A stretch of DNA of 64,000 nt from Inonotus obliquus (Eukaryota > Basidiomycota > Agaricomycetes > Hymenochaetales > Hymenochaetaceae), in assembly GCA_032164295.1 (NCBI GenBank), contig JAJHTX010000012.1, positions 1-64,000 of the forward strand, given 5' to 3'. The stretch's first letter is position 1, and each line of letters starts with the position of its first letter. Under the pieces are notes generated by a model. The model was given only the letters and a program-made list of their open reading frames with translations. It was not told the DNA's origin and did no database searches. Position numbers and translations under genes: made by a program. Positions 19,601 through 63,958 of this stretch are shown here, one piece after another.

Positions 19601-19616
19601 CCACCTGTAGTATACT

Positions 19617-21080: not shown

Positions 21081-21254
21081 ATCATAAGCCCAGCAGTTGC
21101 CTGATCAGCGTAGGTTACACGTTTTGTGTGCGGAATGAAATGAAATGAGAGCCAGGAGTAGCCTTTCAGTGAAGCGATTATGTAATATGTAGTAGGTGAT
21201 CATTCTCACGTGCCTCATTTGATGCTAAATCTGGATTGCGATAGGCTGAGATTC

Positions 21255-21470
21255 TTCCTTCCTCTCCGCTTTGACGCGTACCACGTACACAGACTACAGA
21301 CTCTCGCTCGTGGCAAAAAAAAAGGCCGGCTTGTCTATGCTCCTCATGGCCTCTTTGAACCCGTCTAGCCAGAAGCAAGCAGAGCAGAACCTGGCGACTC
21401 TCCCAGTGCTTTTAGTCAGGTGCCATTGCACCTCTAAGCTAACTTGGAAGGTCAATCTCTGAGCTTTTGT
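21255..21470 (+). pseudogene. CSE1: CSE1 N-terminal fragment, copy 4
   Basis: Contains the same N-terminal helix text as copy 1 (SLNPSSQKQAEQNLATLPV at about 21345-21405, against SLNPAGSKQ...AEQNL in copy 1) and related upstream sequence with CGCTTTG...CGTACC near 21268. It ends near 21470, where Mediator-12-like text begins. Confidence 0.65.
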
Positions 21471-21483
21471 CCGCTCTTATCCA

Positions 21484-41659: not shown

Positions 41660-41672
41660 TGTTACGCCTTGC
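41660..41672 (-). repeat. distal end of the element C 3' LTR, cut off by element D
   Basis: TGTTACGCCTTGC is the reverse complement of the last 13 bases of the C-family LTR (compare 21068-21080). Its last five bases CTTGC are repeated at 55591-55595, on the other side of element D, where the rest of the LTR resumes. Confidence 0.9.
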
Positions 41673-42143
41673 TGTTAGAAAACGCTCGCCCTACGGGACT
41701 ATACAGTAACCACAATAGGACGGCCTCAGTGTTACGGGTTCGGCGATGCTTTTCTAAGAGTTTCCGGAGCCTACTCGGTTTTCACAAGCAGGGCAGATTC
41801 CCAAGTATAATAAGCGTTGCCTCGGACGTTTTCGTTTAGCTAATCAAGTCGGGCCTCAACCTCGTTGACAGACTAGTAGGACAGTGTCGACTGCCGTTCG
41901 TAAGCTTCCCTAGTCGGTGGACGACTAATCAATCGTTCCACGCCGTAGAGTAAGAGAGGTTAAGCAGATTAGGTGGTCTTCAGATTAGAAGCTAGATGCC
42001 TAAGAGGACTCGATGTACAAGACGATCGAAAGAAAGATGGGGAGCTACGGTCTAAGTCTACAACTATTTATACCTTTTCCTCATGTTGTGGACGGACCAC
42101 TTCCTACGCTCCGTAGTTCCTACTCTCGATCTGATTCGTTGTT

Positions 42144-42437
42144 CTAGCTTCCAAACTCGTGCGGTAATTCCATTGTTCTGCTGCGGATTGACTCATCGAC
42201 TGCGCCCTGTGCAGGATGATGACTCGGCGTTGACTCATCTTGACTTGAACTGAATTGAAACCTATGCTCGGGGTCGGCCTTGTGCTGCGCCCTGTGCATA
42301 GAGTGAGTCAGTGAGTGAGTCATTGAATGCGTGTTCGTATGCCATTGGTTTTGCATGGCTGCGCCGTAGTTAAAGTTCGCTCGTCCGCAGTTGCTCGTGC
42401 ATTTAAGGAATTCCGTCGGGGTTCCGTTGTATAGCAT
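42144..42437 (-). CDS. LTR-encoded ORF-b of element D (97 codons), overlaps ORF-a
   Basis: Starts at ATG 42437, overlapping the end of ORF-a by 35 bp in another frame. It is intact in all four LTR copies. The protein has a HSMTHSLTHSMHRAQHKA stretch whose DNA is a GAGTCA-like short repeat, so the His/Ser richness may simply reflect a repeat. It could be a C-terminal extension of ORF-a by frameshifting, or noncoding. Confidence 0.4.
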   Translation of the reverse strand: MLYNGTPTEFLKCTSNCGRANFNYGAAMQNQWHTNTHSMTHSLTHSMHRAQHKADPEHRFQFSSSQDESTPSHHPAQGAVDESIRSRTMELPHEFGS

Positions 42438-43179
42438 CTGGGGCTATGAAGGCTGTGATTTGCTTGTCGCCTCGGGACTCTTGTTCGGGCCTGTCAAGTG
42501 TGATTCGACATCGGATATCATCGTGGGGAAACCAAGGTGGTTTAACGTATGTGCCTATGGTGATGAGTAGCCGTACACTTCGTCGAGTATCGTTCGAAGG
42601 TATTCTCCAGCCTAGGTATAGGTCTCCTTGTAGTCGAATAGCTTTGCAGTATGCCCATAGTTCCCTGAGTGTGTTTGCAACCCATGCCGCTGTTATCGGT
42701 GAGCGGCGGTTCGTAACATAGTCTGCACTGATCTCCACGAATGTGCTTGGGCACTCGAGTGCTAATATGTCGTGGATTCCTACTATTGTCCAGTGCGTCT
42801 TTGGTTGCATGCCTATTGCCGTATCCATTGCTATTGTTGACCTCGTGCGATTTCGAACGACCTCCGGGGGATTGTGATATTCTCGATAAGCTGTTGCTCG
42901 TTCGCTGGACACATGATATGTCAACATGCCCGTTGCCTCCCGTAGTATTATCTTGTGTAGGTCTTCGATGATCTGTCGCACTCTTCTGCATTTATAGCAA
43001 GCCGTTGGAGGTTGCTGTACGTGCTGCATCGTTTGCGAAGGTTTAGTGTGATCGTCGGGATTAGCGTTGCTAGCCGATGCTTCTTGATCGTCGGCTTCGG
43101 ATTGTATTAGATTCGCGTGTTCTCCGCTTCTCGCTGTCGATCCTGATCGTCTCCGGCTAGTGAAATTAACTGGTCCCAT
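42403..43179 (-). CDS. LTR-encoded ORF of element D (U3 ORF-a, 258 codons), 3' LTR copy
   Basis: Starts at ATG 43179. It lies entirely in U3 upstream of the TATA box, so it would be the most 3' ORF of the genomic RNA. The protein has a hydrophilic N-terminus (RRRSGSTARSGE, then DDHTKPSQTMQ) and a CYKCRRVRQIIEDLHKIIL helix near residue 55. A more structured second half (WVANTLRELWAYCKAIRLQG, then GTYVKPPWFPHDDIRCRI) follows. No family was recognised: no RT, integrase, env or superantigen signature. The ORF is uninterrupted in all four LTR copies of the window, with only a few substitutions, which suggests selection or very recent spread. Function unknown. Confidence 0.65.
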   Translation of the reverse strand: MGPVNFTSRRRSGSTARSGEHANLIQSEADDQEASASNANPDDHTKPSQTMQHVQQPPTACYKCRRVRQIIEDLHKIILREATGMLTYHVSSERATAYREYHNPPEVVRNRTRSTIAMDTAIGMQPKTHWTIVGIHDILALECPSTFVEISADYVTNRRSPITAAWVANTLRELWAYCKAIRLQGDLYLGWRIPSNDTRRSVRLLITIGTYVKPPWFPHDDIRCRITLDRPEQESRGDKQITAFIAPDAIQRNPDGIP

Positions 43180-43237
43180 CCGGGGTAGTTTCGATCGGCG
43201 TTCCTAATCGAATCAAAATTTCAGCACAATCCTTTCA

Positions 43238-43253
43238 CTCGCCCCCCTCCAAG
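43238..43253 (-). promoter_or_regulatory. polypurine tract of element D
   Basis: On the minus strand CTTGGAGGGGGGCGAG ends exactly where the 3' LTR begins, the position and composition expected for the plus-strand DNA primer of an LTR retrotransposon. Confidence 0.8.
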
Positions 43254-43610
43254 ATCTTTACTCGATAGGGAAAAGATCTCAATTGGGTTGAAATTGCGAT
43301 GAGATCGTAGGATCGTGTGCGAAATTAGTGACGATGTTGCTTCGTATTTCCTTCGAAATTCGTGTGCGTGATGCAGTTGAAAGACTTTTCGAAGTCTGAA
43401 ATCGTATCCTGAGCTCGATTTGAGAGCGTGCTTCGAGGGTAATTTGAAGAAAGTAAAGGGAGATAGCTTGACTCCCAGTCGAATTGTTGTTTCTTCTTGC
43501 AAATTTCCTTTAAGTTTCACTTTAGTGGACTTAGACTTGTCACACCAAAAGCAAAATAAGAAAATTTTTCTTTATTATTTTCCTCCCTCTGCACCTCTTG
43601 CCCTGCCGGT

Positions 43611-44375
43611 TCAGTCCTCCCAGTGGGTCTGACCGTCATTCCATCCGCGCGCTGTCCACTCGCGATCTCGGCTCTCACCGGGGCTTACTGAGCCTTCGCC
43701 GGACTCTGGCGAATCGGCTGCCCGGTGGTGCAGGCCTGACCTTTCCGACACCCGCTGTCTTCCTCGCATCGGCCACCACGGGGCATTAGCCGGCGGTTGC
43801 GGACCCTGTAGTATGTACGGGCCGCCCCACGCGTTTGCTTCTGCTTCTGCCGCGTCTGCTTCGGGCCATGCTTCTGGTTCGGGTTGTACGTAGCCGGGTA
43901 GGTCGACGTATAGGTCGTCGGGCGTTGCCGGTGGTGCTTCTACCGGTGCCTGTGCCTGTTGTGCTTCTGCCGTGTTCCTGATCGCTTCGAGTTCTTCTAT
44001 TGCCGCCCGCATCCTTGCGACGTCATCGACCAGCTGATCGAGTCTTGCTGCGCTCGATGTTGCTAGGTCTTCGATTGCTCGGTCGGGGATGCTCTGTAGT
44101 ACTTCTTGAAGGCGGTCTTCGATGCGTCCGAAGGACGTTGCGCTTAGGTGGTGGAGTGCCTCGACCGTGAGGTTACGGCCTTGGGCTCGTGCTCGTCTTA
44201 TTTCTTGGGTCCTTCGTGACTCCTCTATCCTCGTCTCTCGCTGTTCCCTGTTTATTTCCTCTAGCCTCACTACTAACTGCTCCCAGCGTTCCAGCGCTCG
44301 TCGTACGACATCCACGATCACAACGGCTGTGGTGCAGACCGTGATGATGAGGAGTGCGGTGTAGTAGGCGTTCAT
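43611..44375 (-). CDS. element D accessory ORF: N-terminal membrane segment plus coiled coil (254 codons)
   Basis: Starts at ATG 44375. Residues 4-24 (YYTALLIITVCTTAVVIVDVV) form a clear hydrophobic helix. They are followed by a long charged helical region with heptad-like spacing (LERWEQLVVRLEEINREQRE and onward to about residue 140), then a Pro/Ala/acidic region and a Trp-rich tail. This is the layout of a small single-pass membrane protein with a cytoplasmic or luminal coiled coil. Its position, last internal ORF before the 3' LTR, is where env genes sit in retroviruses. However, it has no Cys pattern, no fusion peptide and no other env hallmark, so calling it env-like would be only positional. 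No family was recognised. Confidence 0.55.
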   Translation of the reverse strand: MNAYYTALLIITVCTTAVVIVDVVRRALERWEQLVVRLEEINREQRETRIEESRRTQEIRRARAQGRNLTVEALHHLSATSFGRIEDRLQEVLQSIPDRAIEDLATSSAARLDQLVDDVARMRAAIEELEAIRNTAEAQQAQAPVEAPPATPDDLYVDLPGYVQPEPEAWPEADAAEAEANAWGGPYILQGPQPPANAPWWPMRGRQRVSERSGLHHRAADSPESGEGSVSPGESRDREWTARGWNDGQTHWED

Positions 44376-44783
44376 TGTGTTCGAGGTGTCGTTGGTGTTT
44401 CTAGACTACTTGAATGCTTTTCCAGCTGAGGCTCTCCTGTCGGATTCCTGCCTCTATTTATGCTTTTCCAACTCGTACCCTTCGTGACTCTGTTCTAGTC
44501 TTCCCCGGGTTCACCGTGCTGCGGTTGCTGCGGTTTTCAATTGTCTTGCTGCGATCTGTGCTTCGCTGTCGCACTCTATTATTGTCGTGCTGCGGATTTC
44601 CCATATCCTGTCATTCGTGTACGAATTATCTTGCCCGTAGTCGCTTCGTAATAGTCCCGTGATTCTTTGATGTATGTGCGCAGTTGACTTGGCATTCATA
44701 AATACCATAGGGGATTTCGGGTTGCATAATGTTGCGCATGTGTTGTCCTGTTAATAAATACCATAGAAGAATGAGTTGCATAG

Positions 44784-45800
44784 TTATGCTTCGTCATCTG
44801 TCGGCGCTAGATCGAATTCTTCTGTGTCATCGTGGGATCTCTTGCGACTATTGGATGTCTCGTCCTCGGGTTTCCGGGATTGTAGCTTCTGCGGATATTG
44901 ATATACGTCCGTGAACCAGCTACTATCTTTAGGATGTAGTACTGCGCCTAGGGTGTATCTAAGGCGGTATTCCGCACTATTGAGTGCCTGGAGGTAGTCC
45001 TCGTCGTAAGGCCAACAAATAGATTGGTCTAGTTTGTCCGGAGGGTTCTCCCATAATCCTTCCGCTGCTTCTTTCGCTTTGTTGCGGCGTTCTGTTTCTT
45101 CGTTCTCGATCAGTTTCCACGCCTCCAAGTATGGTAAGTCTCGATGAGGTGTGTCCCATGGGATAGATCGTCCTGGTGCCTTTGTTCGTTCCCATGTTTG
45201 TCTAAGTATGTTGATCGTAGAATAGAAATGTCTCTTGAGTCGTGCATATTGAATTTGCTGTTGCGCGATGTACTCGATGTAGTCGCGTTCTTTGGCTGTG
45301 ATACAGTGGATAAGCGACCATCGCATGACCTTGTGTTCGAATGCTTCTGTGAGCTCGACTCGATATGCGCAGATCCTTGTTGCTGCATAGAGTAATGCGA
45401 CGCAATTGTTGACTGTTTCCGTTTGTGACAACAGCAACGGTTGATACGATAGAATCGCTGTGCTGAGATCTAGAGCATATGCGATGTAAGCGTCGTCATT
45501 GAGTCTTCTCACTGAATTGTAAGCTTCTGTAGTCATGGCAAACCAAGATCCAAAGAATATCGGTGGCATTAGCAGCATATTGTATCCCATGCCGCGTTGA
45601 TGTGCCATGCTGATCTTGTCCATGAAATCGTCGAAATATCTGCCGACGTTCGAGGGTATGATGTCATCCCATAACATCTCGGTGTTCTCCCTGTCGTCTA
45701 GCTGTGGCCATTGATATTTGTCGGGTCGTGACTGTATGTCGACTTCTGTGACATTGAGTTGCGCATGCTGTACTTCTGCAAGTGTTTCGAGTAGTGGCAT
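44784..45800 (-). CDS. element D accessory ORF of 338 codons, unknown function
   Basis: Starts at ATG 45800, about 310 bp after the end of pol. The predicted protein is mostly helical and moderately hydrophobic in the middle (GMGYNMLLMPPIFFGSWFA, then CVALLYAATRICAYRVEL). It has a conserved-looking WPYDEDYLQALNSAEYRLRY segment and a charged C-terminus with a basic cluster (SNSRKRSHDDTEE) that could be a nuclear localisation signal. No match to capsid, protease, env or host families was recognised. The full-length ORF in a young element argues that it is used, possibly from a spliced RNA. Confidence 0.55.
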   Translation of the reverse strand: MPLLETLAEVQHAQLNVTEVDIQSRPDKYQWPQLDDRENTEMLWDDIIPSNVGRYFDDFMDKISMAHQRGMGYNMLLMPPIFFGSWFAMTTEAYNSVRRLNDDAYIAYALDLSTAILSYQPLLLSQTETVNNCVALLYAATRICAYRVELTEAFEHKVMRWSLIHCITAKERDYIEYIAQQQIQYARLKRHFYSTINILRQTWERTKAPGRSIPWDTPHRDLPYLEAWKLIENEETERRNKAKEAAEGLWENPPDKLDQSICWPYDEDYLQALNSAEYRLRYTLGAVLHPKDSSWFTDVYQYPQKLQSRKPEDETSNSRKRSHDDTEEFDLAPTDDEA

Positions 45801-46112
45801 TTCGAAATGTAGACTTGTTTCGTGTCGAATGAGAGTTGTTTCTGGCGTTGGTGCCGTTCATAGGTCATTACTGCTTGTTCTTATAGCTTTGTGTCGTTAC
45901 TGCGTATGACTGGGTGATCGGTCCAGTTGTTTTCGATATGACTTGACCTCTACTGCGTATACTGTGCCGCAGTGTCTCTCGTTCGTTCGTGACTGTTCAT
46001 GACTTGTCGTGACTTCGTAAATTCTCAAGCATTGCTGCGAGAATGTCATCATCTGCTGCGATCTGCTGTGATTGGCTGTGGATGAGTACTACTTGCTGTG
46101 CCGCAGTTATGC

Positions 46113-49100
46113 CTACTGCGGGCGTAGTCGTCTGCTGCTGCGCGTAGTCCTTCCTCGACTGCGCATGCTGCGTTGACTGTCTTCTGATACTGTGCTTTCG
46201 GTATCAGTATTACCTTCTGAGTCTGACGTCGATCCTTCTGATCCGTCAGAGGATTCTTCCGTGTCCTCGTGACTCGTTTGTTTCCTATTCCGGCGCCTCG
46301 CGGATAACCATTGCGTAAGGTTCCGTGGCTTCTGCGCCTGAGGGTACTTCTTGTGGAAGTCCTCAACTAGCTTGTACGTGTGCTTCAGGTTCTCCAGCGG
46401 TTCCCATGTTGTTTCTGCATAGCCTTTCCATCTGACTAGGTATTGCACCTTGCTGCGCCGCAGTCTGGTATCTTGAACTGCTTCGACTTCGTATTCGGCT
46501 GCGCCTTCCACTTCTACTGGTGGTGGTTCCGTAAGTTGTTTACGTCCTGGGAATTCCTTCCGCTTGTATGGCTTCAATAGACTCGCATGAAATACTGGGT
46601 GAATTGCCATCGTTTCAGGAAGTTTCAGTCGAAATGAAACCTTCCCCACGGCCTTGTCGACTTTATAAGGCCCTGCCCATTTCATGGCTAGTTTCTTCGT
46701 CGGTTCGAGTCTTGCTAAGTTCTTCATATCCAACATCACTTCGTCTCCAGGTCGATAATCTGGTAGCTTTCCTCGATGTAAGTCTGCATATAACTTCATC
46801 GCTTCGTTAGCCTGCTTAATGCTTGCATAGGCTTGTCGCTGCGCTTGTTGAAGCTCCTCTCGGTAATCTTGTGCTTCTGGGACGTTGCTTTCGTCGTGAC
46901 TGGCAAAGTCAGTTGTTGGATTCCATCCGTACAACGTGTAGAATGGTGATTGACGTGTCGCTGAATGCTGTCTGTTGTTATAGGCGAATTCTGCGAGATC
47001 CAAGTAATGTGCCCAATCTGTCTGTCGGTAGGACACATAGCAGCGTAAGTACTGTTCCATCGTTTGGTTCAGTCGCTCTGTTTGACCATCGGTTTGTGGG
47101 TGATACGCGGTGCTAGTTTTCCAATCGATTTTGAGGAGTCGGCAGAACTCCTTCAAAAACTGCGCCGTGAAGTTGCTTCCTCTGTCGGAGAGTACAACCT
47201 TTGGGGTCCCATAATGCTTGAAGATGTTTTGGATGAACATCTGTGCAATGCGTTTGGCATTCGGTACACCCGTCGTAGGGATGAACCTCCCCATCTTGGT
47301 AAGTCTATCCACAACAACCAATATGGTGTCATATCCCTCGGTACTGACTGGTAGGTCTGTAACCAGGTCACAGGAAATGGCTTCCCATGGCCTTTCAGGT
47401 GGGGATATCGGTTGAATCGGTGGCTCGCGATTTTGCCGAAGAGGCTTTGATCGCTGACATGCGTCGCAAGTTGTTACGTAGTCTCGGACGTCCGATCGAA
47501 GGTTTGGCCAATAGTATCGTCTCTCCAGAAGCTCAGTGGTTTTGGCTACTCCGGGATGGCCTGCAGTTGTGTGGTCATGGTGCCTTCGCATTAGTAGACT
47601 TCGTAGGTTGGCGTTCGGCGGGATCCATAACTTTCCATCTACATAACGAGTTCCATCCGTGTAGGTGTGGCTTCTGTCTTTCGTATTCCGTATGACGTTC
47701 CATTCGGTTTGTGCCTCCTTCGTCGCATAGTCCTTTCGAATAGTTCGAAGTATCGGGTCCGTGATCCTGACTGACGTAGTTTTCAACTCGTATAGTCCTG
47801 CGACTTCCGTTCGTTTCAACGTTTGCTGCTGTATGCGGTCTGCTGGTAGCATAGTGATCTTCTCTGTGTCTTTGCCGATTTCGTAATCGGTTCGCCTTGA
47901 TAGTGCGTCGGCTTTGTTCTCCTTGCCTGGCCAATGTATCATCTTGAAGTTAAACTGGGATAGCTTTAGCATCCATCGTTTCAGCTTCTCAGATAGGTTT
48001 TGTCCTGTCATAAACCATTGCAGGTTCTTATGATCTGTTCGAATGATAAAAGGATGTTTCGTTCCTTCGAGCAAGTGTCTCCATTCGTTGAGTGAATGAA
48101 CAATTGCGAACATCTCTTTTTCGTGAACTGGCCAGTTGAGTTGTGCTCCTGACAACTGCTTCGACATTGTGGCTAACGGTCGTAGTTCGCCCTTGTCGTC
48201 TTCTTGTTGGAGTAAAGCTCCGATCGCAAATTTCGATGCATCTGTTTCGAGGATGAATGGTTTATCGTGGTTTGGATAACCTAGCGTTATTTCCGTTTGA
48301 AACGCTTGCTTGATGTCCTCGAATGCTTGCTGACATTCAGTTGTCCATACGAACTTCCTATCCTTCTTGGTGAGTTCGTTAATTGGGTGTATGCGCTCTG
48401 CATAGTTCTTCACGAATCTTCGATAGAAGTTGCAAAATCCTTGGAACTTCCTGATTTCCCGTTTCGTCGTTGGTGTAGGCCATTCTGCGATTGCTTTGAG
48501 TTTGTACGGGTCCATTTGTACTCCCTTGTCGCCCACTATAAAGCCTAGGTAGTCTAGCTTCTTCTGTAGGAAATGGCACTTCTCGATCTTCAAGTAGATA
48601 TCGAGTTCTCGGCATTTCTTCAAGACTGCTCGTAGGAGTTTCCAGTGTTCCTCCTCAGTCTTTGCCTTTCCGATGATGTCGTCCAGGTAGATAAGTATCT
48701 CCTGACTTCGTAGCCATTGCTCAAAGTTGTCGTTCATGAATCGTTGGAATATTGCGGGTGAGTTCTTCATTCCGAACATCATAACGAGTGGCTTGTAAAT
48801 TGCGTTGCCGACTCGGAATGCCGCTTTCCATTCATCTCCTTCCTTGATACGCAAGTTGTGGTATCCGGATCGCATGTCCAATGTGAAGAAGTAATTGTTG
48901 CCTGCCAACTTGTCTGGTAACCCATTCATGATTGGAATCGGGTACGGGTCTGGTATCGTGATTTGGTTTATCGCTCGATAGTCCGTTACGACTCTTGCCC
49001 CTCCGTCCTTCTTTCCAACAAAGAATACGGGTGATGCTACTGGGCATGGTTCGTGTGGTTCGACCTTGGTGATCCATCCTTTCTTCATCAGCTCATCTAC

Positions 49101-51514
49101 GTGGTTGTCCAGTGCTTCCTGTTCGACTGGCGTGAGCTTGATAATAGGTCGTGGTTTTGGTAACGGTTCCTTCTCATCGAGGTGTATGACCATGTCATAC
49201 TTCGTATGTCTTGGTAGTCGTCTTGCCCTGTCTGGATCGAATACGTCTGCATAGTCTGCTATCTGCCTTGGTAGCAGTTTGCGCCAATCTTGTTTCTGCG
49301 TGTCTAGCAATCCCTCTGCTGCTGCTTTCTGCTGCGAGTATTGCTGCGCTACTGAGCTAACCTTGTTCAATGGTTGCTTCTCTTGGCGATGCTGTCGATT
49401 CGTATTTGGTGACCAATTTCGTTTGATCTCAAACATTTCTGCGAGATCCTCCTTCTGCAGTAAGGGTTTTGATTTACCTCGAGCCTCGGTGGCGAGATAC
49501 GCTATTCGTTGCTGAATAGGTGATGGTTCGTTGGTTACCATACGTTCGATATGCATTTCTTCTTGAGGTTGGGTTCCTCCTGGTTCTTGCAGTTCGTCCA
49601 TAACTTCGTCTTGATCCGTGTGCTCCCACCTTGTTCTTTTCGGTGCGGGGCTTCGTGTTCGTGTACTTCCTGTACTATCGATAGACTGTCTTCGCCGATG
49701 TCCTAGTATCGGTTTGTCTTCGAATCGTTCCTTCCGTGGCATAATCCATGTACCTTTCGGATCAAAGTTTCCTACGGCTTCTTCTCCTTCTCGAAGATAA
49801 CCTTTCCAGTACTTGAATGTAGGGTCTTCCTTGACTACTCGTGGTTTCGTTGTCTTCCGTTCGACTGACGGTGACTCTTGTCTTCGCTTTTCTAGTGATG
49901 TCGTACTCGGTTGCAAGGGCTTATTGCGACTGCCTTGACTCTGTACTCGTGTGTCAGGTCTTTCTGCCTGTTCATTCCCGAATCTTGATATAGGCGATCT
50001 TGATTCGTCTTCGGGTCTTATTGGTACTGCCCAGTCTTGTCGAGTCTTATTGCTACTGCTCTGACTAGACTGCAAAGTCTTATTGGCGCTGCTTTGTCTT
50101 GGTGCGTTCGACGTTCGTTCACCTTCTGGCGTCCGTGCTCTCTTCCTTGGAGCATTGCTGAATTGACTTCCTGATCGTGGTCTAATTCTCGGTGGTGAAA
50201 CGTTCCTTATTTCGTTTCTCGTCGATCGGCTTTCGCTTCGGTTTCTGCCTTCCATAGGGCGGTCGTCCCTTTGCCTTTCCTTCGTGTTGAGGTCTGGCCT
50301 AATCCATATTCCACTATCGTTGTCGCTATCGCTGTCGGTTTCTGAGTTGTCAGATGAGCCGGATCCCGGGCTCTTCGTAGCTTTAGCTTTCGTCTTCCTG
50401 CCATAGGCTGTCTTGCGCGTAACAGGTGAGTTACTATCCAACGGCAACGTCTTATTGGTACTGCGTTGACTGTTCAAGGGCTTATTGCCAATGCCTTGTT
50501 GTTTCGGTCGTTGATCGTCTCGACTCTTCAAGGTCTTATTGCGACTGCCTTGTGCCTGCTTGGTCTTATTGCCACTGCCATGCTGCGATCGTTGATCTAC
50601 TTGTGGAACCTTTCGTTTCTCTGTCTTGTATAGAGCTTTCGATGTCTTCGTGCCTTCGTCTTGGGTAATGGCTCTTTCATTCCCGTACCAGGATGGTCGC
50701 TCCTGACTAGTCGCCTCTCCTATTCGATTGGGCCTAGCTTTCCTTCGTTGTTCGCGATTACAACTGTTCTCCTGATCGTCTACCGATTTGCGCTTGTCGG
50801 TTACCAGATTTCCCTTTGGTCCGCTGACGCTTGGGTCGTTTCGTGTAGCCTTATTGCCATTGCTACTCTGGTTCGATCGTAAGGTCTTATTGACTCTGCC
50901 TTTCGTAGTCTTATTGCCATTGCTACCCCGCCGTTCGGTCTTATTGGTGCTGCCTGAACGCGGTGAGGGCTTATTTGTTTTGCCTCTACGATTACGGTTT
51001 GTACTTTTCCGTTTTCGTTTCCGTTTCTTGCTTGTCGACTCTGCTCGAACGATACTGAGCTCGAATGGTATTGTTTGTCCATTTCCTTCCATGACTTGTT
51101 CCTTCCAATCGATGATCGGGTTGGCCTTGCCCAAATAATCGATGCCTAGTATGATCTGATCTGTTCCCGTATGTGCGACTGCCAGAGTTTGACCGATGGG
51201 CTTGATTCCGTCAAATATAAGTGCGTCCACTTCGTACTTGATTGCTCCTTTTCGGTTTGCTGTTCCATCTGCATTTCGCAACGGTCTAGGTTGTGATAGC
51301 GTTCGTCTTGGTAAGTCGTGTTTCCGTACTAACTCCGGATGAATAGTACTGCATGTTGCTCCTGAGTCGATAAGTGCTTTGACTGCTAAGGTTTGCGTTC
51401 CCACAAGAATCCTGATAGGCAATCTTGGGTGTAATGCATATGTCGGTAATCCTTTACTGTACATTTCTTCGCAATCCTTAATACCCTCTCGCTTCGCAGT
51501 CTTGAGCGGAGGTG
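46113..51514 (-). CDS. element D pol: protease, long spacer, RT, RNase H, integrase, chromodomain
   Basis: The frame is open from about 51514 to the stop at 46113; the first ATG is 51464 (1783 codons from there). Numbered from that ATG, protease active site DSGAT is at residues 33-37. A ~500-residue low-complexity spacer has repeated NKT motifs. The RT has YLDD near residue 925 and the RNase H has ETDASKFAIGALL. The integrase has its zinc-binding HHDH...CDACQ region, DLVTDLP, LSDRGSNF and the AYHPQTDGQTERLNQ block. A GPY-type segment and a C-terminal chromodomain (YLVRWKGYAETTWEP, near residue 1680) follow. Domain order is Gypsy/Metaviridae-type, chromovirus branch. No stop or frameshift was seen. 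Translation probably depends on -1 frameshifting from gag (see 51492-51527). Confidence 0.92.
49915..50990 (-). repeat. dispersed short repeat within the protease-RT spacer of pol
   Basis: A motif reading CTTATTG followed by about four variable bases and TGC on the plus strand occurs about a dozen times (for example at 49919, 50047, 50087, 50483, 50537, 50570, 50885, 50909). It encodes the recurrent NKT or NKP of the spacer. Spacing is irregular and often 24-36 bp. Confidence 0.7.
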
Positions 51515-51527
51515 CTAGTCTTTTCCC
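51492..51527 (-). promoter_or_regulatory. -1 ribosomal frameshift signal between gag and pol of element D
   Basis: On the minus strand the heptamer GGGAAAA (51527-51521) sits in the gag frame as G-GGA-AAA, one codon before the gag stop TAG (51517-51515). The -1 frame leads directly into the open pol frame. After an 8-nt spacer a stem follows, CCTCCGCT pairing with AGCGAGAGG (eight pairs, one bulged A, 11-nt loop). Slippery heptamer, spacer length and stem match the classical X-XXY-YYZ arrangement. Confidence 0.75.
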
Positions 51528-52630
51528 TGACCTTGTGCCTTAGCCTTTCCTTTGTTAGGCTTCTGGTCGCGTGGTTTGGGATTGACGTTTCGCTTGTTCG
51601 TATGATCGTCGTCTTCTTCTTCCTCGGATTCGGCTTCTTGAATTCTCGCGTGCATGGTTCTTCTATTCTTCTTGTGATGCTTCGACGATCTTCCACGTGC
51701 TCCTTTAGACGTGTTTGGTCGACGATGTTGGCGGTGATTACCTAGTGCTCCTTTAGACGTAGGTGATCTTCTCGGTTCGGGGCATTTGCTTGCATAGTGA
51801 CCCTGTCTTCCGCAATTGTAACATCCTGATGATCCCTTCTTCGGCAAGCCTCGGATTGCATCGATGTCCATTGCGTTCGGATCTCTTTCTAGTCTTGTAG
51901 GCTGCTCGTACCTCGGTTGTCCATGAAATGAATACCGTGGTTGATATGTTCCTTGCGTGAGCTGAGCCTTTGTCTTGTTCATGACTGCATATTGCTCCGT
52001 TATTGCCATCCATTCTTCATAACTGAATTTCGTGAATGCTTCCATGTCGTGTGCGAGTACGCGATTGATAAGCCATTGATCCAATCCTTTGATGTAGCAG
52101 TGCTTAATCGTATTCTCGTCCACTGTGCTTGCAATCTTCGTTCGTAGTTGCCTGAACGCGTGATTGTAACTCTCGATAGGTTTGCTGGCCTGTTTGATAT
52201 TGAATATCTTGTTCAGGGCCTCGAGTTCTTGTGGAACGGTTTTGCCTGCTTTGGTACGGATGAATTGAATCATATCCCTGAGTGATGCGAACATAGCGGT
52301 AGGAGGTTTCGCAACCGCTCCTGCTGCATCTACGACGGTAGGTAAGCTCTTGAGTGCTCCGGTGGTAGCGTCGAATGATACGGTGAGTTGCTTTTCGAGG
52401 AACCAATTGAATGCATCTCCCTCGATAGCTAGGAATAGCGCGTTCGCAATTTCCTTCTCGTCCTTAATTCCGTTTGACACTAATTTCGCCACACTCCTGT
52501 CTACCCATTGATCGATACTTTCGTCTCGTGCGCCTAGAAACTTTGGTAGTTTAATCGACAATCTTGCCATTCGACTGGTAAGCTCATTGATCCGAGCTTG
52601 TAGTTGATCTGGTGTTGGAGGTGTTGCCAT
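51515..52630 (-). CDS. element D gag (371 codons)
   Basis: Starts at ATG 52630 and ends at TAG 51515-51517. The N-terminal and central part is a Gypsy capsid-type helical domain (DQWVDRSVAKLVSNGIKDE, then FRQLRTKIASTVDENTIKH). The C-terminal nucleocapsid has one CCHC zinc knuckle (CYNCGRQGHYASKC, about residue 270). A basic and then acidic tail (EAESEEEEDDDH) precedes the slippery site. Gag assembles the particle that packages element RNA. It overlaps the upstream coiled-coil ORF by 47 bp. It is intact. Confidence 0.9.
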   Translation of the reverse strand: MATPPTPDQLQARINELTSRMARLSIKLPKFLGARDESIDQWVDRSVAKLVSNGIKDEKEIANALFLAIEGDAFNWFLEKQLTVSFDATTGALKSLPTVVDAAGAVAKPPTAMFASLRDMIQFIRTKAGKTVPQELEALNKIFNIKQASKPIESYNHAFRQLRTKIASTVDENTIKHCYIKGLDQWLINRVLAHDMEAFTKFSYEEWMAITEQYAVMNKTKAQLTQGTYQPRYSFHGQPRYEQPTRLERDPNAMDIDAIRGLPKKGSSGCYNCGRQGHYASKCPEPRRSPTSKGALGNHRQHRRPNTSKGARGRSSKHHKKNRRTMHARIQEAESEEEEDDDHTNKRNVNPKPRDQKPNKGKAKAQGQGKD

Positions 52631-53348
52631 TGTCGGTAAATGCTACTACGCGAGGTGGTCTGATCGGTAATAGAGTTGTCTCGAATGTTTCAACGATTGG
52701 TACGCTTGTTTGTACGCTGCTTGATACTGTCGCGGGTTCTTCTTCCAATGTCAAGTTACGGATTCTCGTCAAGACTTCCTCAATCTGTTCACGTGGAATG
52801 AAGGTGAACTGTTCGATGTGCGTTTCGCCTGAGTCTATCGATTCGTTACTTTCCAATGACCTTTGGATTTCGTTGCGTGTCTCTTGAATGCGTTGAGTTG
52901 TTTCGATGTGTTCTCTCTGGATATTTCCGATTAACTCTGTGAGTTGCTGGTACTGGTCGTCGAGCTTCTTGTTCTGCTCTTCTAGCTGATTTGTTCTATC
53001 AACAAGTCCGTTGATTAACGTTCGTTCGACGAAGAATCGATGTCTTGTCGATTGCTCGAATTCCTCGAGATCCTTGGCTAGTCCAGATACTGTAACTCCT
53101 TCTCCTGTAGCGGTTTGCTCTGTCTGGAGATTTGACCTCTGTAAGTTTGCTGGCGTGCTTCCTGCGATAACGTTGTCTTGGAGTCCTTCGACGGCTGCTA
53201 TAATTCTTCTCGTTAAGAATTTGATTTCGTCGATTTCGATTTGACGTTGTTCCTCGTGGATCTCCAATAACTCTTGTCTGTTGTGTTGTGCGATCACTTG
53301 TCTTTCGAGTGTCGCGATCCTTGCTAGGGTTTCGTATTCCCTTGTCAA
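52584..53348 (-). CDS. element D upstream coiled-coil ORF (254 codons, no ATG)
   Basis: An open frame just upstream of gag and overlapping its first 47 bp. It has no ATG: the first usable codon is TTG at 53348 and a TGA lies eight codons upstream (53370-53372). If translated, it must be reached by splicing or frameshifting. The sequence is strongly helical with heptad character (RTNQLEEQNKKLDDQYQQL, then HIETTQRIQETRNEIQRSLE), without Cys, and ends in a Ser/Thr-rich tail. The leader upstream (53373-54007) contains a GTG-started frame with a hydrophobic segment (53692-53895) that could supply a first exon, but no splice pair could be proved. Confidence 0.45.
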   Translation of the reverse strand: MTREYETLARIATLERQVIAQHNRQELLEIHEEQRQIEIDEIKFLTRRIIAAVEGLQDNVIAGSTPANLQRSNLQTEQTATGEGVTVSGLAKDLEEFEQSTRHRFFVERTLINGLVDRTNQLEEQNKKLDDQYQQLTELIGNIQREHIETTQRIQETRNEIQRSLESNESIDSGETHIEQFTFIPREQIEEVLTRIRNLTLEEEPATVSSSVQTSVPIVETFETTLLPIRPPRVVAFTDNGNTSNTRSTTSSDQ

Positions 53349-54007
53349 CTCTCGTGCTTGTCTTGCGTTTCAATTGTTGTCTCGACGTTCTGGCTGTTCT
53401 TGTGTGTCGTTGCGTGGACCTCTTGGTAGGTTGCTTCGACCGTTACTACGTCGTTGATGTTGCATATATCGATAAGCGAATTGGCTTCTTTAGTTGACTT
53501 CGTATCCTTCCTGGATAATGTTCTTCGTAGTTGTCAGATTCTTTTCTCCTCCTGTAAGCCCAGGTTTCCTTCTGAATCAATCTTCAACTAGCTACGAGTC
53601 AGTCGACTTCCGATGAAGGTGACTCTAGTAGACTTGTACTCGATTCGATGTGCGATGGGACACTTGATCGTATATCGTATCGGTGCTGGTTTCACTGTAG
53701 CTCAACTACGTGTGTAGGAACTGCAGGTAATGGTTCTTCGACGAGTGGCTGGCAATCACAACTGCTCGAGTCGAAGTTGGGTGAATACAACTGATACTCT
53801 TCCTGACTAACGTTTGCTACGCAAGCCCAGTAAAGAATAACAGTGGCTAATTTGATAATGATGTGAGTAATTTGTAGAACGGTAGTGACGTGCACCTTTC
53901 ACTAGCGTTAGACGCTGTTGGTTATTACACTCCCAATTGCGAGTGGATCTTTCCTTCTTCGAATGTTAGAAAGCGATAACACTGATCTACTGAGATTCCC
54001 GAAGGAG

Positions 54008-54023
54008 ATCTTTCTTTCGATCG
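54008..54023 (-). promoter_or_regulatory. self-complementary primer-binding site of element D
   Basis: On the minus strand CGATCGAAAGAAAGAT lies two nucleotides downstream of the 5' LTR end. It is the exact 16-nt reverse complement of ATCTTTCTTTCGATCG in the LTR (minus strand 54391-54376), which begins about 34 nt after the start of the TATA box, at the predicted RNA 5' end. Tf1/sushi-type elements prime reverse transcription with their own RNA 5' end in this way. The two extra bases fit integrase end-trimming. Confidence 0.8.
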
Positions 54024-54025
54024 AA

Positions 54026-55590
54026 TGTTAGAAAACGCTCGCCCTACGGGACTATACAGTAACCACAATAGGACGGCCTCAGTGTTACGGGTTCGGCGAT
54101 GCTTTTCTAAGAGTTTCCGGAGCCTACTCGGTTTTCACAAGCAGGGCAGATTCCCAAGTATAATAAGCGTTGCCTCGGACGTTTTCGTTTAACTAATCAA
54201 GTCGGGCCTCAACCTCGTTGACAGACTAGTAGGACAGTGTCGACTGCTGTTCGTAAGCTTCCCTAGTCGGTGGACGACTAATCAATCGTTCCACGCCGTA
54301 GAGTAAGAGAGGTTAAGCAGATTAGGTGGTCTTCAGATTAGAAGCTAGATGCCTAAGAGGACTCGATGTACAAGACGATCGAAAGAAAGATGGGGAGCTA
54401 CGGTCTAAGTCTACAACTATTTATACCTTTTCCTCATGTTGTGGACGGACCACTTCCTACGCTCCGTAGTTCCTACTCTCGATCTGATTCGTTGTTCTAG
54501 CTTCCAAACTCGTGCGGTAATTCCATTGTTCTGCTGCGGATTGACTCATCGACTGCGCCCTGTGCAGGATGATGACTCGGCGTTGACTCATCTTGACTTG
54601 AACTGAATTGAAACCTATGCTCGGGGTCGGCCTTGTGCTGCGCCCTGTGCATAGAGTGAGTCAGTGAGTGAGTCATTGAATGCGTGTTCGTATGCCATTG
54701 GTTTTGCATGGCTGCGCCGTAGTTAAAGTTCGCTCGTCCGCAGTTGCTCGTGCATTTAAGGAATTCCGTCGGGGTTCCGTTGTATAGCATCTGGGGCTAT
54801 GAAGGCTGTGATTTGCTTGTCGCCTCGGGACTCTTGTTCGGGGCCGTCAAGTGTGATTCGACATCGGATATCATCGTGGGGAAACCAAGGTGGTTTAACG
54901 TATGTGCCTATGGCGATGAGTAGCCGTACACTTCGTCGAGTATCGTTCGAAGGTATTCTCCAGCCTAGGTATAGGTCTCCTTGTAGTCGAATAGCTTTGC
55001 AGTATGCCCATAGTTCCCTGAGTGTGTTTGCAACCCATGCCGCTGTTATCGGTGAGCGGCGGTTCGTAACATAGTCTGCACTGATCTCCACGAATGTGCT
55101 TGGGCACTCGAGTGCTAATATGTCGTGGATTCCTACTATTGTCCAGTGCGTCTTTGGTTGCATGCCTATTGCCGTATCCATTGCTATTGTTGACCTCGTG
55201 CGATTTCGAACGACCTCCGGGGGATTGTGATATTCTCGATAAGCTGTTGCTCGTTCGCTGGACACATGATATGTCAACATGCCCGTTGCCTCCCGTAGTA
55301 TTATCTTGTGTAGGTCTTCGATGATCTGTCGCACTCTTCTGCATTTATAGCAAGCCGTTGGAGGTTGCTGTACGTGCTGCATCGTTTGCGAAGGTTTAGT
55401 GTGATCGTCGGGATTAGCGTTGCTAGCCGATGCTTCTTGATCGTCAGCTTCGGATTGTATTAGATTCGCGTGTTCTCCGCTTCTCGCTGTCGATCCTGAT
55501 CGTCTCTGGCTAGTGAAATTAACCGGTCCCATCCGGGGTAGTTTCGATCGGCGTTCCTAATCGAATCAAAATTTCAGCACAATCCTTTCA
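54026..55590 (-). repeat. element D 5' LTR (1565 bp)
   Basis: Same length as, and nearly identical to, the 3' LTR. On the minus strand the TATAAATA box is at 54418-54425 and the predicted RNA start is near 54391. Flanked on the right by CTTGC (55591-55595), which matches 41668-41672. Confidence 0.93.
54756..55532 (-). CDS. U3 ORF-a, 5' LTR copy
   Basis: Intact 258-codon copy. It differs from the 3' LTR copy at only a few residues (for example R/Q near residue 9, T/A and R/G in the last 50). The overlapping 97-codon ORF-b is at 54497-54790. If both LTR copies are translated, this one would need transcription starting upstream of the LTR. Confidence 0.6.
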   Translation of the reverse strand: MGPVNFTSQRRSGSTARSGEHANLIQSEADDQEASASNANPDDHTKPSQTMQHVQQPPTACYKCRRVRQIIEDLHKIILREATGMLTYHVSSERATAYREYHNPPEVVRNRTRSTIAMDTAIGMQPKTHWTIVGIHDILALECPSTFVEISADYVTNRRSPITAAWVANTLRELWAYCKAIRLQGDLYLGWRIPSNDTRRSVRLLIAIGTYVKPPWFPHDDIRCRITLDGPEQESRGDKQITAFIAPDAIQRNPDGIP

Positions 55591-56149
55591 CTTGCGCAGT
55601 CAGAGACGTTGATCACAGGATCAGAGACGTCGACGAGCAAGAAGACGAGCTACCACTTAATCACAAGAGACCGGAGTCTGCGACGTAGGTGATAGTACTA
55701 GATTAGCATGTCTAACTAAGGTACAAGTATTTGTATGACTTACCTGCGACGTAGGTGATAGTACTAGAACAAGAGAGTGGGGAATCCCTAACTCTCTGGT
55801 CCAGCCTTATATACACTTTGGTCGCAGGTAAGTTCTACTCTAAATAGGTGCCGACTAGCAGCAAGTAAATATGAACAAACAAACAATGGGGCCCGATGAG
55901 TCAGCAAGAATGAGTAAAGATGAGTAAGCATCGTTGGGTTAAACGGAAAGAAGAATAATGAATCAGCAAGAATGAGTAATAGTAGAATGGGAAAAGAATG
56001 AAAAGGGGTATCAGGATAAGATTGTTATAAATTGTAATTAGCTAAGCCTGTATGTATTAAGTAAGGAATGTGGTTAAAAGGAATGTAAATATGCATTGAC
56101 GAAAATAAAAGAAAGGCCGTGTAAAGGAAATGGAAAAGGTGTCGTAACA
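55591..56149 (-). repeat. element C 3' LTR, main part
   Basis: On the minus strand it begins TGTTACGACACC at 56149 and matches the solo LTR at 20523-21080 throughout. Its last bases are at 41660-41672, beyond element D. On its other side the solo D LTR 56154-57719 intervenes, with duplication ATTAC, exactly at the polypurine tract/LTR junction of element C. Confidence 0.88.
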
Positions 56150-56153
56150 TTAC

Positions 56154-57719
56154 TGTTAGAAAACGCTCGCCCTAAAGGGACTATACAGTAACCACAATAG
56201 GACGGCCTCAGTGTTACGGATTCGGCGATGCTTTTCTAAGAGTTTCCGGAGCCTACTCGGTTTTCACAAGCAGGGCAGATTCCCAAGTATACTAAGCGTT
56301 GCCTCAGACGTTTTCGTTTAGCTAATCAAGTCGGGCCTCAACCTCGTTGACAGACTAGTAGGACAGTGTCGACTGCCGTTCGTAAGCTTCCCTAGTCGGT
56401 GGACGACTAATCAATCGTTCCACGCCGTAGAGTAAGAGAGGTTAAGCAGATTAGGTGGTCTTCAGATTAGAAGCTAGATGCCTAAGAGGACTCGATGTAC
56501 AAGACGATCGAAAGAAAGATGGGGAGCTACGGTCTAAGTCTACAACTATTAATACCTTTTCCTCATGTTGTGGACGGACCACTTCCTACGCTCCGTAGTT
56601 CCTACTCTCGATCTGATTCGTTATTCTAGCTTCCAAACTCGTCTGGTATTCCCATTGTTCTGCTGCAGATTGACTCATCGACTGCGCCCTGTGCAAGGCG
56701 ATGACTCGGCGTTGACTCATCTTGACTTGAACTGAATTGAAACCTATGCTCGGGGTCGGCCTTGTGCTGCGCCCTGTGCATAGAGTGAGTCAGTGAGTGA
56801 GTCATTGAATGCGTGTTCGTATGCCATTGGTTTTGCATGGCTGCGCCGTAGTTAAAGTTCGCTCGTCCGCAGTTGCTCGTGCATTTAAGGAATTCCGTCG
56901 GGGTTCCGTTGTATAGCATCTGGGGCTATGAAGGCTGTGATTTGCTTGTCGCCTCGGGACTCTTGTTCGGGGCCGTCAAGTGTGATTCGACATCGGATAT
57001 CATCGTGGGGAAACCAAGGTGGTTTGACGTATGTGCCTATGGCGATGAGTAGCCGTACACTTCGTTGAGTATCGTTCGAAGGTATTCTCCAGCCTAGGTA
57101 TAGGTCTCCTTGTAGTCGAATAGCTTTGCAGTATGCCCATAGTTCCCTGAGTGTGTTTGCAACCCATGCCGCTGTTATCGGTGAGCGGCGGTTCGTAACG
57201 TAGTCTGCACTGATCTCCACGAATGTGCTTGGGCACTCGAGTGCTAATATGTCGTGGATTCCTACTATTGTCCAGTGCGTCTTTGGTTGCATGCCTATTG
57301 CCGTATCCATTGCTATTGTTGACCTCGTGCGATTTCGAACGACCTCCGGGGGATTGTGGTATTCTCGATAAGCTGTTGCTCGTTCGCTGGACACATGATA
57401 TGTCAACATGCCCGTTGCCTCCCGTAGTATTATCTTGTGTAGGTCTTCGATGATCTGTCGCACTCTTCTGCATTTATAGCAAGCCGTTGGAGGTTGCTGT
57501 ACTTGCTGCATCGTTTGCGAAGGTTTAGTGTGATCGTCGGGATTAGCGTTGCTAGCCGATGCTTCTTGATCGTCGGCTTCGGATTGTATTAGATTCGCGT
57601 GTTCTCCGCTTCTCGCTGTCGATCCTGATCGTCTCCGGCCAGTGAAATTAACCGGTCCCATCCGGGGTAGTTTCAATCGGCGTTCCTAATCGAATCAAAA
57701 TTTCAGCACAATCCTTTCA
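56154..57719 (-). mobile_element. solo D-family LTR (LTR3), recombined
   Basis: A 1566-bp D-family LTR with a mutated TATA box (TATTAATA). Left flank is ATTAC (56149-56153) and right flank ATCGC (57720-57724), which do not match each other. They match, inverted, the left and right flanks of LTR4. It is almost identical to LTR4 and less so to the LTRs of element D. Confidence 0.92.
56885..57661 (-). CDS. U3 ORF-a, copy in LTR3
   Basis: Intact 258-codon copy from ATG 57661. A further in-frame codon series upstream lacks an ATG. It has a few subfamily differences from the D copies (HVQQ to QVQQ, TRRSVR to TQRSVR). ORF-b copy is at 56626-56919 with a different C-terminus (MGIPDEFGS). Confidence 0.6.
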   Translation of the reverse strand: MGPVNFTGRRRSGSTARSGEHANLIQSEADDQEASASNANPDDHTKPSQTMQQVQQPPTACYKCRRVRQIIEDLHKIILREATGMLTYHVSSERATAYREYHNPPEVVRNRTRSTIAMDTAIGMQPKTHWTIVGIHDILALECPSTFVEISADYVTNRRSPITAAWVANTLRELWAYCKAIRLQGDLYLGWRIPSNDTQRSVRLLIAIGTYVKPPWFPHDDIRCRITLDGPEQESRGDKQITAFIAPDAIQRNPDGIP

Positions 57720-58169
57720 ATCGCCTTCGATGCAAAAGAAAAAGAGGTTCGCCAGCTGAGACGACAGAACACTCCAACACAGCAACCTCCGCGTCGACAA
57801 ACCTTCCAGCCAGCACTGCAAAAGCCGACCCTATTTGACCTGCCGTGCGGCGACAAAAGAGACGCAATGGGCGTCACGTTTGGAGGACAAGGCGAACCAA
57901 TGCAGGTTAGCCTCCAACGTCTTCGACATGATGGAGTGTGTTGGGAATGCGGGAAGCCGGGGCACATAGCCAGGTTCTGCAAGACGCCGAAAACCCCACA
58001 AGCCGTCCGAGCCGTCGTCACTGAACTCTCCGACGAAATGAAGGAATTACTCCGCAACGAATTGTTCACGGAAGCTGACATAGCGTCAGCAGCAGCGCGT
58101 AGGGTTGAAGCAGAAGAAGCCGTCAATGAAAGTAATCCCGATGGCGAGGATTTTTCGAACAGCCAGTAG
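57720..58169 (+). pseudogene. element C gag, C-terminal part
   Basis: Contains the nucleocapsid zinc knuckle CWECGKPGHIARFC near 57940. The frame begins FDAKEKE right at the LTR3 boundary. It joins without loss to the N-terminal gag part at 63350-63958 (ending EMKLYAIA) if one ATCGC copy and the LTR are removed, so one gag gene was split by the LTR insertion and inversion. The frame ends at 58169. The pol frame begins in a different phase after a run of five T near 58152, probably a single-base change. Confidence 0.8.
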
Positions 58170-61775: not shown

Positions 61776-61778
61776 AAT

Positions 61779-63344: not shown

Positions 63345-63349
63345 GCGAT

Positions 63350-63958
63350 GGCATACAACTTCATTTCGTCGTATGTCTTAGGGGAGGTAGGTAGACGAAT
63401 AATCGCCGTTGCAACTTCTTCATGCAGAGCCTTCTTCAGCTGCGGTAACACGACGTTAAGGTCACTCGTCACAATACCCGCTTGACTCATCGTGATTTCA
63501 AAATTTGCAAGGAAGACACCCACGTCGGCATTTCCTTGACGCATTTCCATCCATCGGGTATACGCCCGCTCTTTCTCTCCAGGGTCCTTGAATGACTGGT
63601 CGAGTTTCTCGAGGAACTTGTCGAAAGCATCAACGATCTTAATCGCTCCTTTTGCATCTGTTATTCCGTCATAGTAATTCTGAGCCCATGTCGACGCTGT
63701 TCCTTCCTTCATATATGAGAGGATGAACGAGATCTTCTTCTTGTCTGTGACGAAGATCGAATTAGTGTCATCGGCACTGATGTACGCCAGACATTCTCGA
63801 CAGAATCGGAGGTAGTCCTTTCCTCCAGTGAAGGGCGTCGGCAGTGCGATCCCGAGATCTTTCATCGTTGATGACTTGGTTACTTTGTTTTGAGCAGTCA
63901 TCGCCGTCGCGACTAGGACGGCAAAGTCTTTAAGCTGATCTGCGGTGAACGACGACAT
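63350..63958 (-). pseudogene. element C gag, N-terminal part
   Basis: Starts at ATG 63958 (SSFTADQLKDFAVL). It contains the capsid-type region ISFILSYMKEGTASTWAQNY and WMEMRQGNADVGVFLANFE. It is open to the LTR4 boundary, where it stops at KLYAIA. The continuation is at 57725 on the other strand. The 5' LTR of element C must lie beyond the right end of the window. Frame intact in this part. Confidence 0.82.

Follow-up and report, generated by a model that had tools for sequence, protein, structure and literature searches.

A chromovirus family of Inonotus obliquus with four accessory genes under purifying selection and no GTRNGT motif on its sense strand

Introduction

Foamy viruses possess an internal promoter and genes reaching into U3, and some complex retroviruses carry genes in the 3' long terminal repeat (LTR). 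Cer1 of C. elegans belongs to the Ty3/Gypsy kin. In fungi, we take the Tf1/sushi-type chromoviruses to be the group closest to the subject of this study, an LTR retrotransposon of 13,918 bp on the minus strand (55590 to 41673) of a 64,000-nt stretch, in the following the window, at the start of contig JAJHTX010000012.1 (C12) of Inonotus obliquus. Besides gag and pol it contains four accessory open reading frames (ORFs), namely ORF1 ahead of gag, ORF338 and ORF254 beyond pol and the U3 ORF within the LTR. Judged by its copies in the same genome (36.07 Mb in 30 contigs searched), it probably represents a recently active, self-primed chromovirus family with six genes and a complex-retrovirus-like gene content, which would be expressed without splicing.

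Published systems are compared here on the basis of excerpts of the cited papers. Fungal Gypsy elements range from 4.4 to >13 kb, most of the surveyed ones with one or two ORFs, and the Figure 3 legend of the survey lists an additional ORF with function not known (PMC2864245); this ORF appears in the excerpt through the legend only, from which neither its carrier element nor a kinship to the present family is readable. Because the survey includes fungal Gypsy elements >13 kb, the size of our element is not unprecedented. A preliminary description of the window had called the gene set of the element unusually large, which is justified to a moderate degree, and had proposed the element as an undescribed system, which stands for the gene set within the collections and literature searched. 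Large size and, in one element, an extra ORF are already in print (PMC2864245).

With the Tf1/sushi-type elements, including their basidiomycete clades (PMC2864245), the element shares the order of reverse transcriptase (RT), RNaseH, integrase (IN) and chromodomain, the Tf2-1 SH3 domain, a 5-bp target site duplication (TSD) and a self-priming primer binding site (PBS), whereas four selected accessory genes (one in U3), the ORF1/gag overlap, the TATA boxes and the donor-free strand are its own. The resemblance to complex retroviruses and foamy viruses, i.e., small genes beyond gag-pol, a gene in the 3' U3 and, as a candidate, an internal promoter, is one of layout only, as no env was recognised, pol is of Ty3 type with a chromodomain and canonical splice donors are missing. 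A figure legend of PMC7828637 mentions an internal promoter. In Cer1, likewise an LTR element, the orphan gene CERV is located downstream of pol and serves the RNA of the element, but CERV is made from a spliced mRNA (PMC10309623), while no canonical donor is present here. Retand and other plant elements also carry additional ORFs; Retand resembles our element in its long region between pol and 3' LTR, its orphan ORFs and recently active families, but is a non-chromovirus with antisense ORFs (PMC11963269), whereas here a chromodomain is present and all four accessory ORFs are in sense. In bdelloid rotifers, LTR elements with ORF3 vary in the extra ORFs located downstream of pol, some of which contain membrane helices and several of which have recognisable enzyme or env domains (PMC5408684), while the present accessory ORFs matched no family. 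In the open-licence literature, covered by titles and abstract openings, we found no chromovirus with four accessory genes, no fungal LTR-encoded gene and no donor purging.

Results

The six genes are arranged in the window as follows, in order of their direction of reading, with the U3 ORF present in each LTR:

54756-55532, minus strand: U3 ORF copy in the 5' LTR, upstream of the probable RNA start
52584-53465, minus strand: ORF1, 293 codons in most copies; in the window copy with a stop after codon 31 and no internal ATG in any frame
51515-52630, minus strand: gag, 371 amino acids (aa), CCHC knuckle, weak Ty3-type capsid match, ATG in strong context
46113-51539, minus strand: pol frame, protease (PR)-RT-RNaseH-IN-chromodomain, open from 51539, first ATG at 51464
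44784-45800, minus strand: ORF338, homologue searches negative; low-confidence model predominantly helical; N/S (defined below) 0.11
43611-44375, minus strand: ORF254, N-terminal hydrophobic helix, possible coiled coil, acidic and proline-rich tail
42403-43179, minus strand: U3 ORF in the 3' LTR, 258 aa, first ATG after ORF254

In total, 17 full or near-full copies of the family were found in the genome, the window copy included. DNA searches retrieved ORF338 in 17 whole copies and one partial copy and ORF254 in 18 copies. For the ORF1 region, 18 matches correspond to 17 copies, as two matches belong to a single copy, and the U3 ORF was found in 18 3'-LTR copies. In protein searches of the same genome, the three internal accessory genes were restricted to this family (18, 17, and 18 matches with an identity of at least 94%), while gag has distant relatives of 23-26% identity in other families. 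In order to evaluate selection, nonsynonymous versus synonymous variants were counted across distinct copies and normalised with a kappa of 3 (N/S); C7p, which is a partial copy, was excluded from these frame-specific counts, as were C6b and C8c in the 5' part. The lowest ratio was obtained for ORF338 (0.11, p=2e-19), followed by ORF1 (0.16, p=1e-12; 0.13 when its first 39 codons are excluded), gag (0.19, p=4e-9), pol (0.22, counted in its own frame), ORF254 (0.27-0.28, p=6e-9) and the 258-aa U3 ORF (0.36, p=1e-4), with a p of about 1e-4 or less in every case. For the five genes other than pol, the two alternative frames reached 1.06 to 3.55, and 11 of 12 frame tests in noncoding sequence gave no signal. 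On the basis of these counts, all four accessory genes are under frame-specific purifying selection. In-frame stops were present in none of 18 copies of ORF254, one of 17 whole copies of ORF338 and one of 18 of the U3 ORF, compared with two of 16 for gag and four of 16 whole copies for pol; among 17 copies of ORF1, 14 are open, two (window copy and C13) are interrupted by a nonsense codon and one is fused to pol by a deletion.

The extra ORFs had initially been explained by either a lack of time to decay or selection. An ordinary chromovirus with captured host fragments, whose extra ORFs are passengers and open only because the copies are young, would agree with the absence of a detectable homologue for ORF338 and the U3 ORF and with the little decay time implied by identical LTRs in 10 of 16 copies. 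We regard it as the least probable of the explanations considered and as very improbable in itself: copy differences in the accessory frames are synonymous about as strongly as in gag/pol, with the N/S values arguing strongly against passengers for ORF338, ORF1 and ORF254 and the U3 ORF representing the weakest case. Moreover, distinct gap runs are few in the genes (none in ORF338, ORF1 and the U3 ORF, one in ORF254), in comparison with eight, five and three in the three intervals separating the downstream genes, two in the leader and none in the rest of U3. The proposal of selection was borne out by the other copies in this genome, which carry ORF338, ORF254, ORF1 and the U3 ORF with a synonymous-biased variation and N/S below 1. 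The ORF inventory itself needed revision. Three internal ORFs of 338, 254 and 254 codons had been described and are present, but the upstream one of 254 codons has no ATG and is the 3' part of the 293-codon ORF1. Two ORFs had been counted per LTR, of which the 258-aa frame is gene-like; the 149-aa frame overlapping it shows no purifying selection (N/S 3.15, p=0.06) and was dismissed as a spurious overlap artefact. A 147-aa ORF overlapping ORF1 was also rejected as a gene, with no in-frame purifying selection and stops in 12 of 13 distinct sequences.

The terminal and priming structures of the element are listed below:

54026-55590, minus strand: 5' LTR, 1565 bp; U3 55590-54392, R-U5 54391-54026 (R start deduced)
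41673-43237, minus strand: 3' LTR, 1565 bp
55591-55595 (5' side) and 41668-41672 (3' side), no strand: TSD CTTGC, perfect
43238-43251, minus strand: polypurine tract TGGAGGGGGGCGAG, invariant in 16 of 16 copies scored with both LTRs
54391-54425, minus strand: LTR promoter, TATAAATA from 54425; probable RNA 5' end at 54391, 34 nt downstream
54008-54023, minus strand: putative self-priming PBS, 16-nt complement of the probable RNA 5' end (54391-54376)

Comparison of 54026-55590 with 41673-43237 gave 99.49% identity (eight mismatches in 1565), and this value as well as the perfect CTTGC duplication agree with what had been reported before, as does the chromodomain Gypsy gag-pol (gag 51515-52630, pol 46113-51464). 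Pfam domains of pol follow the order RVT_1, RT_RNaseH, H2C2, rve, SH3 (Tf2-1) and Chromo, with the protease also in pol. The chromodomain (PF00385, residues 1658-1706, E 1.9e-10) lies C-terminal of the integrase and is matched by PDB chromodomains too, and the best PDB match of pol is Ty3 7q5b, covering residues 767-1645; the capsid match of gag is below its Pfam cut-off. RT-RNaseH placed before the integrase is the Gypsy order of a Ty3-like pol and, by domain order together with the chromodomain, the element is a chromovirus (Metaviridae).

The PBS starts 2 nt after the 5' LTR and is the exact reverse complement of the 16 nt from 54391. Complementarity to the RNA's own 5' end is, as we assume, the Tf1-type self-priming arrangement; priming thus looks Tf1-like, and this arrangement is the reason for placing the putative RNA 5' end at 54391. 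The 16th pair is present in all but one (C8b) of 16 scored copies; in C8a both partners have changed and still pair. The paired change in C8a supports self-priming but is not independent covariation, because the primer may be copied into the PBS during reverse transcription itself. Each LTR holds four TGASTCA sites ahead of the TATA box (54548-54675, 42195-42322), presumably AP-1/Gcn4-like, which suggest stress or starvation control. R-U5 (54026-54391, 41673-42038) is the most variable region with 0.16-0.18 variable sites per base and 14 gap runs, compared with 0.05-0.11 in the other profiled regions.

LTR pairs are identical over the aligned stretch in 10 of 16 scored copies and, judged by these pairs, the family is recently active. 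The term "young" therefore applies to the family, whereas the window copy, to which it had been given, is with its eight mismatches the most diverged and by LTR divergence the oldest of the 16. The 5-bp TSD matched in 10 of 16 copies; of the others, three were unjudgeable as the alignment ended short of the LTR end, two stand in tandem and one (C6a) matches in four of five bases. Among 196 LTR candidates 40 were scored, all of which matched, and six of eight fetched LTR loci look like solo LTRs with neither ORF254 nor leader sequence adjoining; the U3 ORF is still open in five of these six. The tandem pair (C12:389433-416220) has identical scored LTRs, a middle LTR apparently common to both and matching outer flanks (ATTCG), and is apparently a recombination or assembly effect. 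In another locus (L032/L048, C6:2505134-2512661) a deletion took out gag, leaving ORF1 in an open frame of 1700 codons, apparently with pol.

Between 54391 and the gag ATG (1761 nt), the window copy contains a single ATG, compared with 14.4 expected and a minimum of four in 5000 shuffles, while CAT, the reverse complement of ATG, occurs 22 times and GTA 24 times in the same leader. This sole ATG (53465) is the ORF1 start. Its context is poor (CGATATATGC, T at -3 and C at +4), and that of the gag ATG, which lies within a 47-nt overlap of ORF1 and gag, is strong (GACAATGG, A at -3 and G at +4). Among 15 scored copies (C6b, which has no gag start, was left out of leader scoring) the ORF1 ATG is present in all and the sole leader ATG in 11, and the 293-codon frame is intact in 13. 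This pattern points to leaky scanning past the ORF1 AUG to gag. Further downstream, pol lies in the -1 frame relative to gag, and the 25-nt overlap contains the following candidate:

51521-51527, minus strand: GGGAAAA heptamer, candidate -1 frameshift site, one codon before the gag stop

The heptamer is identical in 15 of 15 aligned copies, which is consistent with a -1 frameshift producing Gag-Pol.

GTRNGT is the usual fungal 5' splice-site consensus, and mushroom-type fungi are intron-rich. DUF6534, a domain family typical of Agaricomycetes, has 31 matches in this genome, 30 of them exceeding the cut-off, compared with none in 14 control genomes, which agrees with a mushroom-type host. On the sense strand of the element (41673-55590) this motif does not occur at all, compared with 14.2 expected by base composition and 55 occurrences on the antisense strand; with the LTR counted once, 12.3 are expected in the unique sequence. 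Sense-strand scans of the element stretches of 17 copies (C8c as a piece without 5' LTR) and of six solo LTRs likewise returned no GTRNGT. Window positions 904-41672, used as control, contain 82 on the plus strand (82.0 expected) and 72 on the other, and a neighbouring, apparently decayed chromovirus fragment contains five versus 6.4 expected. An excerpt of PMC2483917 terms GTRNGT "more typical" in speaking of the alga Ostreococcus. The complete lack suggests an escape from splicing in an intron-rich host. Alternatively, the missing donors could be a by-product of an A-rich/T-poor strand, low GTR content and codon bias, unrelated to splicing. The sense strand is indeed strongly skewed (A 0.337, T 0.179), and sibling motifs are low as well (GTR 215 of 336 expected, GTRNGC 5 of 19.6, TTRNGT 4 of 10.8, GTRNCT 8 of 15.0), which speaks against a specific loss of donors. 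Synonymous shuffles of the coding parts, of which 0.9% reach zero, expect only 4.1 GTRNGT, so part of the deficit is due to base and codon choice. Nevertheless, we consider this explanation rather unlikely for the deficit as a whole: not only does base composition predict the 12.3 sites mentioned, but ~9 would still be expected from base frequencies given the 215 GTR present, trinucleotide-Markov shuffles hold 7.1 on average with a minimum of 2 in 200, and the noncoding parts contain none of 3.0 expected. Furthermore, GTYNGT (11 of 10.6), GARNGT (25 of 26.7), GGRNGT (22 of 18.6) and GTRNGA (21 of 26.7) are near expectation.

Two regions upstream of the genes beyond pol resemble promoters:

45880-46172, minus strand: putative promoter for ORF338, internal to the element, with TATAAG at 45885 (-85 relative to the ATG); eight CGCAG, four within the pol 3' end
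44454-44594, minus strand: putative promoter for ORF254, internal to the element, with CATAAATAG as box at 44462 (-87 relative to the ATG); four CGCAG sites

The pattern [TC]ATAA[AG] occurs eight times on the sense strand, four times in the LTRs (two sites twice), twice in pol and twice at the -85 and -87 positions of ORF338 and ORF254; both of the latter boxes are invariant among the aligned copies with the region. ORF254 has its own ATG as the first one after its box. In ORF338, ATGs at 45868 (among aligned copies in the window copy only) and 45861 follow the box, both of them before the RNA start expected ~30 nt after it. CGCAG is the most enriched 5-mer common to all three upstream stretches, with four, eight and four sites per 300 nt above the boxes of LTR, ORF338 and ORF254, respectively, and the two internal stretches hold 12 of the 30 internal CGCAG sites (1.67 expected). 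These features suggest possible internal promoters of ORF338 and ORF254. The U3 ORF is preceded by 431 ATG-free nt after ORF254 (4.2 expected, p=0.013), and its translation may depend on the ORF254 RNA or on another, undetected start.

The downstream genes could also be made by alternative splicing from the LTR promoter in the way of retroviral env and CERV of Cer1, a mode which is usual in retroviruses and seen in Cer1 (PMC10309623). One GTAAGC on the sense strand and a branch-like CTAAT motif at 43328 above the U3 ORF would be in line with it. Given a sense strand with zero GTRNGT in the stretches scanned in 17 copies, no CTRAY in the stretches scanned above ORF338 and ORF254, and TATA boxes at -85 and -87, we judge splicing to be an unlikely source of these genes.

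Searches of 5.8 billion proteins were performed with ORF338, gag and the U3 ORF. ORF338 and the U3 ORF matched nothing, and gag gave three matches (best 56% identical), which means that this collection has some relatives of the element, but few. ORF338 found nothing in PDB and the U3 ORF one match at chance level (E 1.3); AlphaFold2 single-sequence models of the two were unusable, with a mean predicted local distance difference test (pLDDT) score of 38.6 and 38.7, respectively. An IMG/VR match to ORF338 (L064; E 1e-5 among candidate stretches, 1.2e-4 and 15.8 bits on record) was discarded as chance, sharing by eye one 8-residue word, itself a search pattern, among phage-like genes. An RT fragment had no match in IMG/VR. 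Pfam and PHROG matches of ORF1 and ORF254 were weak, being either generic or under the Pfam cut-offs. Met, Cys and Trp are absent from the 254-residue part of ORF1. In a crude heptad scan ORF1 reached 6/8 and ORF254 7/8, and coiled coils, to which weak matches point in both, are only a possibility, because gag scores 7/8 as well.

The hydrophobic stretch of ORF254 (19 residues, at residue 6; KD19 2.43) is followed by arginines, and the tail is acidic and proline-rich, which suggests a membrane anchor with the remainder in the cytosol; the protein has one cysteine. Its membrane-type N terminus, its position after pol and the young family would also suit an envelope-like protein, and the family would then be an endogenous, potentially transmissible fungal retrovirus. 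This appears highly improbable, as the best hydrophobic stretch sits right at the N terminus, no fusion-protein family is among the Pfam matches of ORF254, and one cysteine as well as the acidic, proline-rich tail do not fit. Env families are absent from the Pfam matches of all accessory ORFs up to an E of 1, distant env folds being beyond sequence search. As guesses at roles, ORF1 may be a Gag partner and ORF254 a membrane-anchored scaffold; ORF338 and the U3 protein may be soluble and either regulate or counteract silencing.

Near the element, two family LTR copies plus a few flanking bases (56148-57721 and 61777-63350) are arranged as an inverted pair of 1574 nt with a listed complementarity of 100%, and the 4055 nt inside it hold a different, apparently decayed chromovirus pol, ~40% identical to that of the element. 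The contig end at the window start (10-903) is part of another chromovirus (SH3 and chromodomain), and an imperfect palindrome of ~5.5 kb with arm pairs 88-95% complementary was found at 17826-23324.

Discussion

The gene set, its conservation, purifying selection, the self-complementary PBS, AUG depletion and the missing donors can be read from the DNA itself. On this basis, the LTR promoter would give rise to one unspliced RNA, on which some scanning ribosomes would start at the weak-context AUG and produce ORF1, while the remaining ones would cross the largely AUG-free ORF1 body to the strong gag AUG, with a -1 frameshift at GGGAAAA leading to Gag-Pol. ORF338 and ORF254 would stem from shorter RNAs begun at their own TATA boxes, under a CGCAG control in common with the LTR. 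The U3 ORF would be translated near the RNA 3' end, as in the 3' LTR genes of some complex retroviruses. Finally, the loss of canonical 5' splice sites from the coding strand would allow the long RNA to evade the splicing machinery of an intron-rich host.

A number of observations weigh against this reading. All expression steps are inferred from sequence. The N/S counts treat columns as independent with no correction for the tree of copies; the first 39 codons of ORF1 alone show no significant selection (N/S 0.56, p=0.48), and one of the 12 noncoding controls, leader frame 2, gave 0.47 (p=0.034). Four of 15 scored leaders contain one extra ATG, opening 7 to 15 codons, and the partly covered leader of C8c also has a second one. 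A hairpin downstream of GGGAAAA was no better than in shuffles (z -0.40). The donor counts were controlled by window sequence and the neighbouring chromovirus fragment, and new variants among copies created no donors versus 2.4 expected, which is not significant. CGCAG is a post hoc motif, noticed first and tested afterwards, and four of its eight sites above ORF338 are pol coding sequence. When the ORF254 box region alone is compared with the LTR core promoter, the agreement (16/24) was equalled or exceeded by 13 of 40 shuffles and is not significant, and the U3 ORF has neither a TATA box of its own nor a CGCAG cluster.

A more far-reaching proposal is an organisation convergent with that of complex retroviruses, comprising four accessory genes with one in U3, internal promoters with control elements in common with the LTR and a leaky-scanned ORF1. 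In it, the purging of donors from the whole 14-kb coding strand would be a novel answer to the unspliced-RNA problem and replace an encoded or recruited RNA exporter; we regard this proposal as possible and put it forward tentatively.

Four orphan genes about as constrained as gag/pol point to functions beyond copying, possibly directed against host silencing, and represent four protein families open to structural work. With the donor-free sense strand, it becomes possible to test directly how a long retroelement RNA without introns survives in an intron-rich nucleus.

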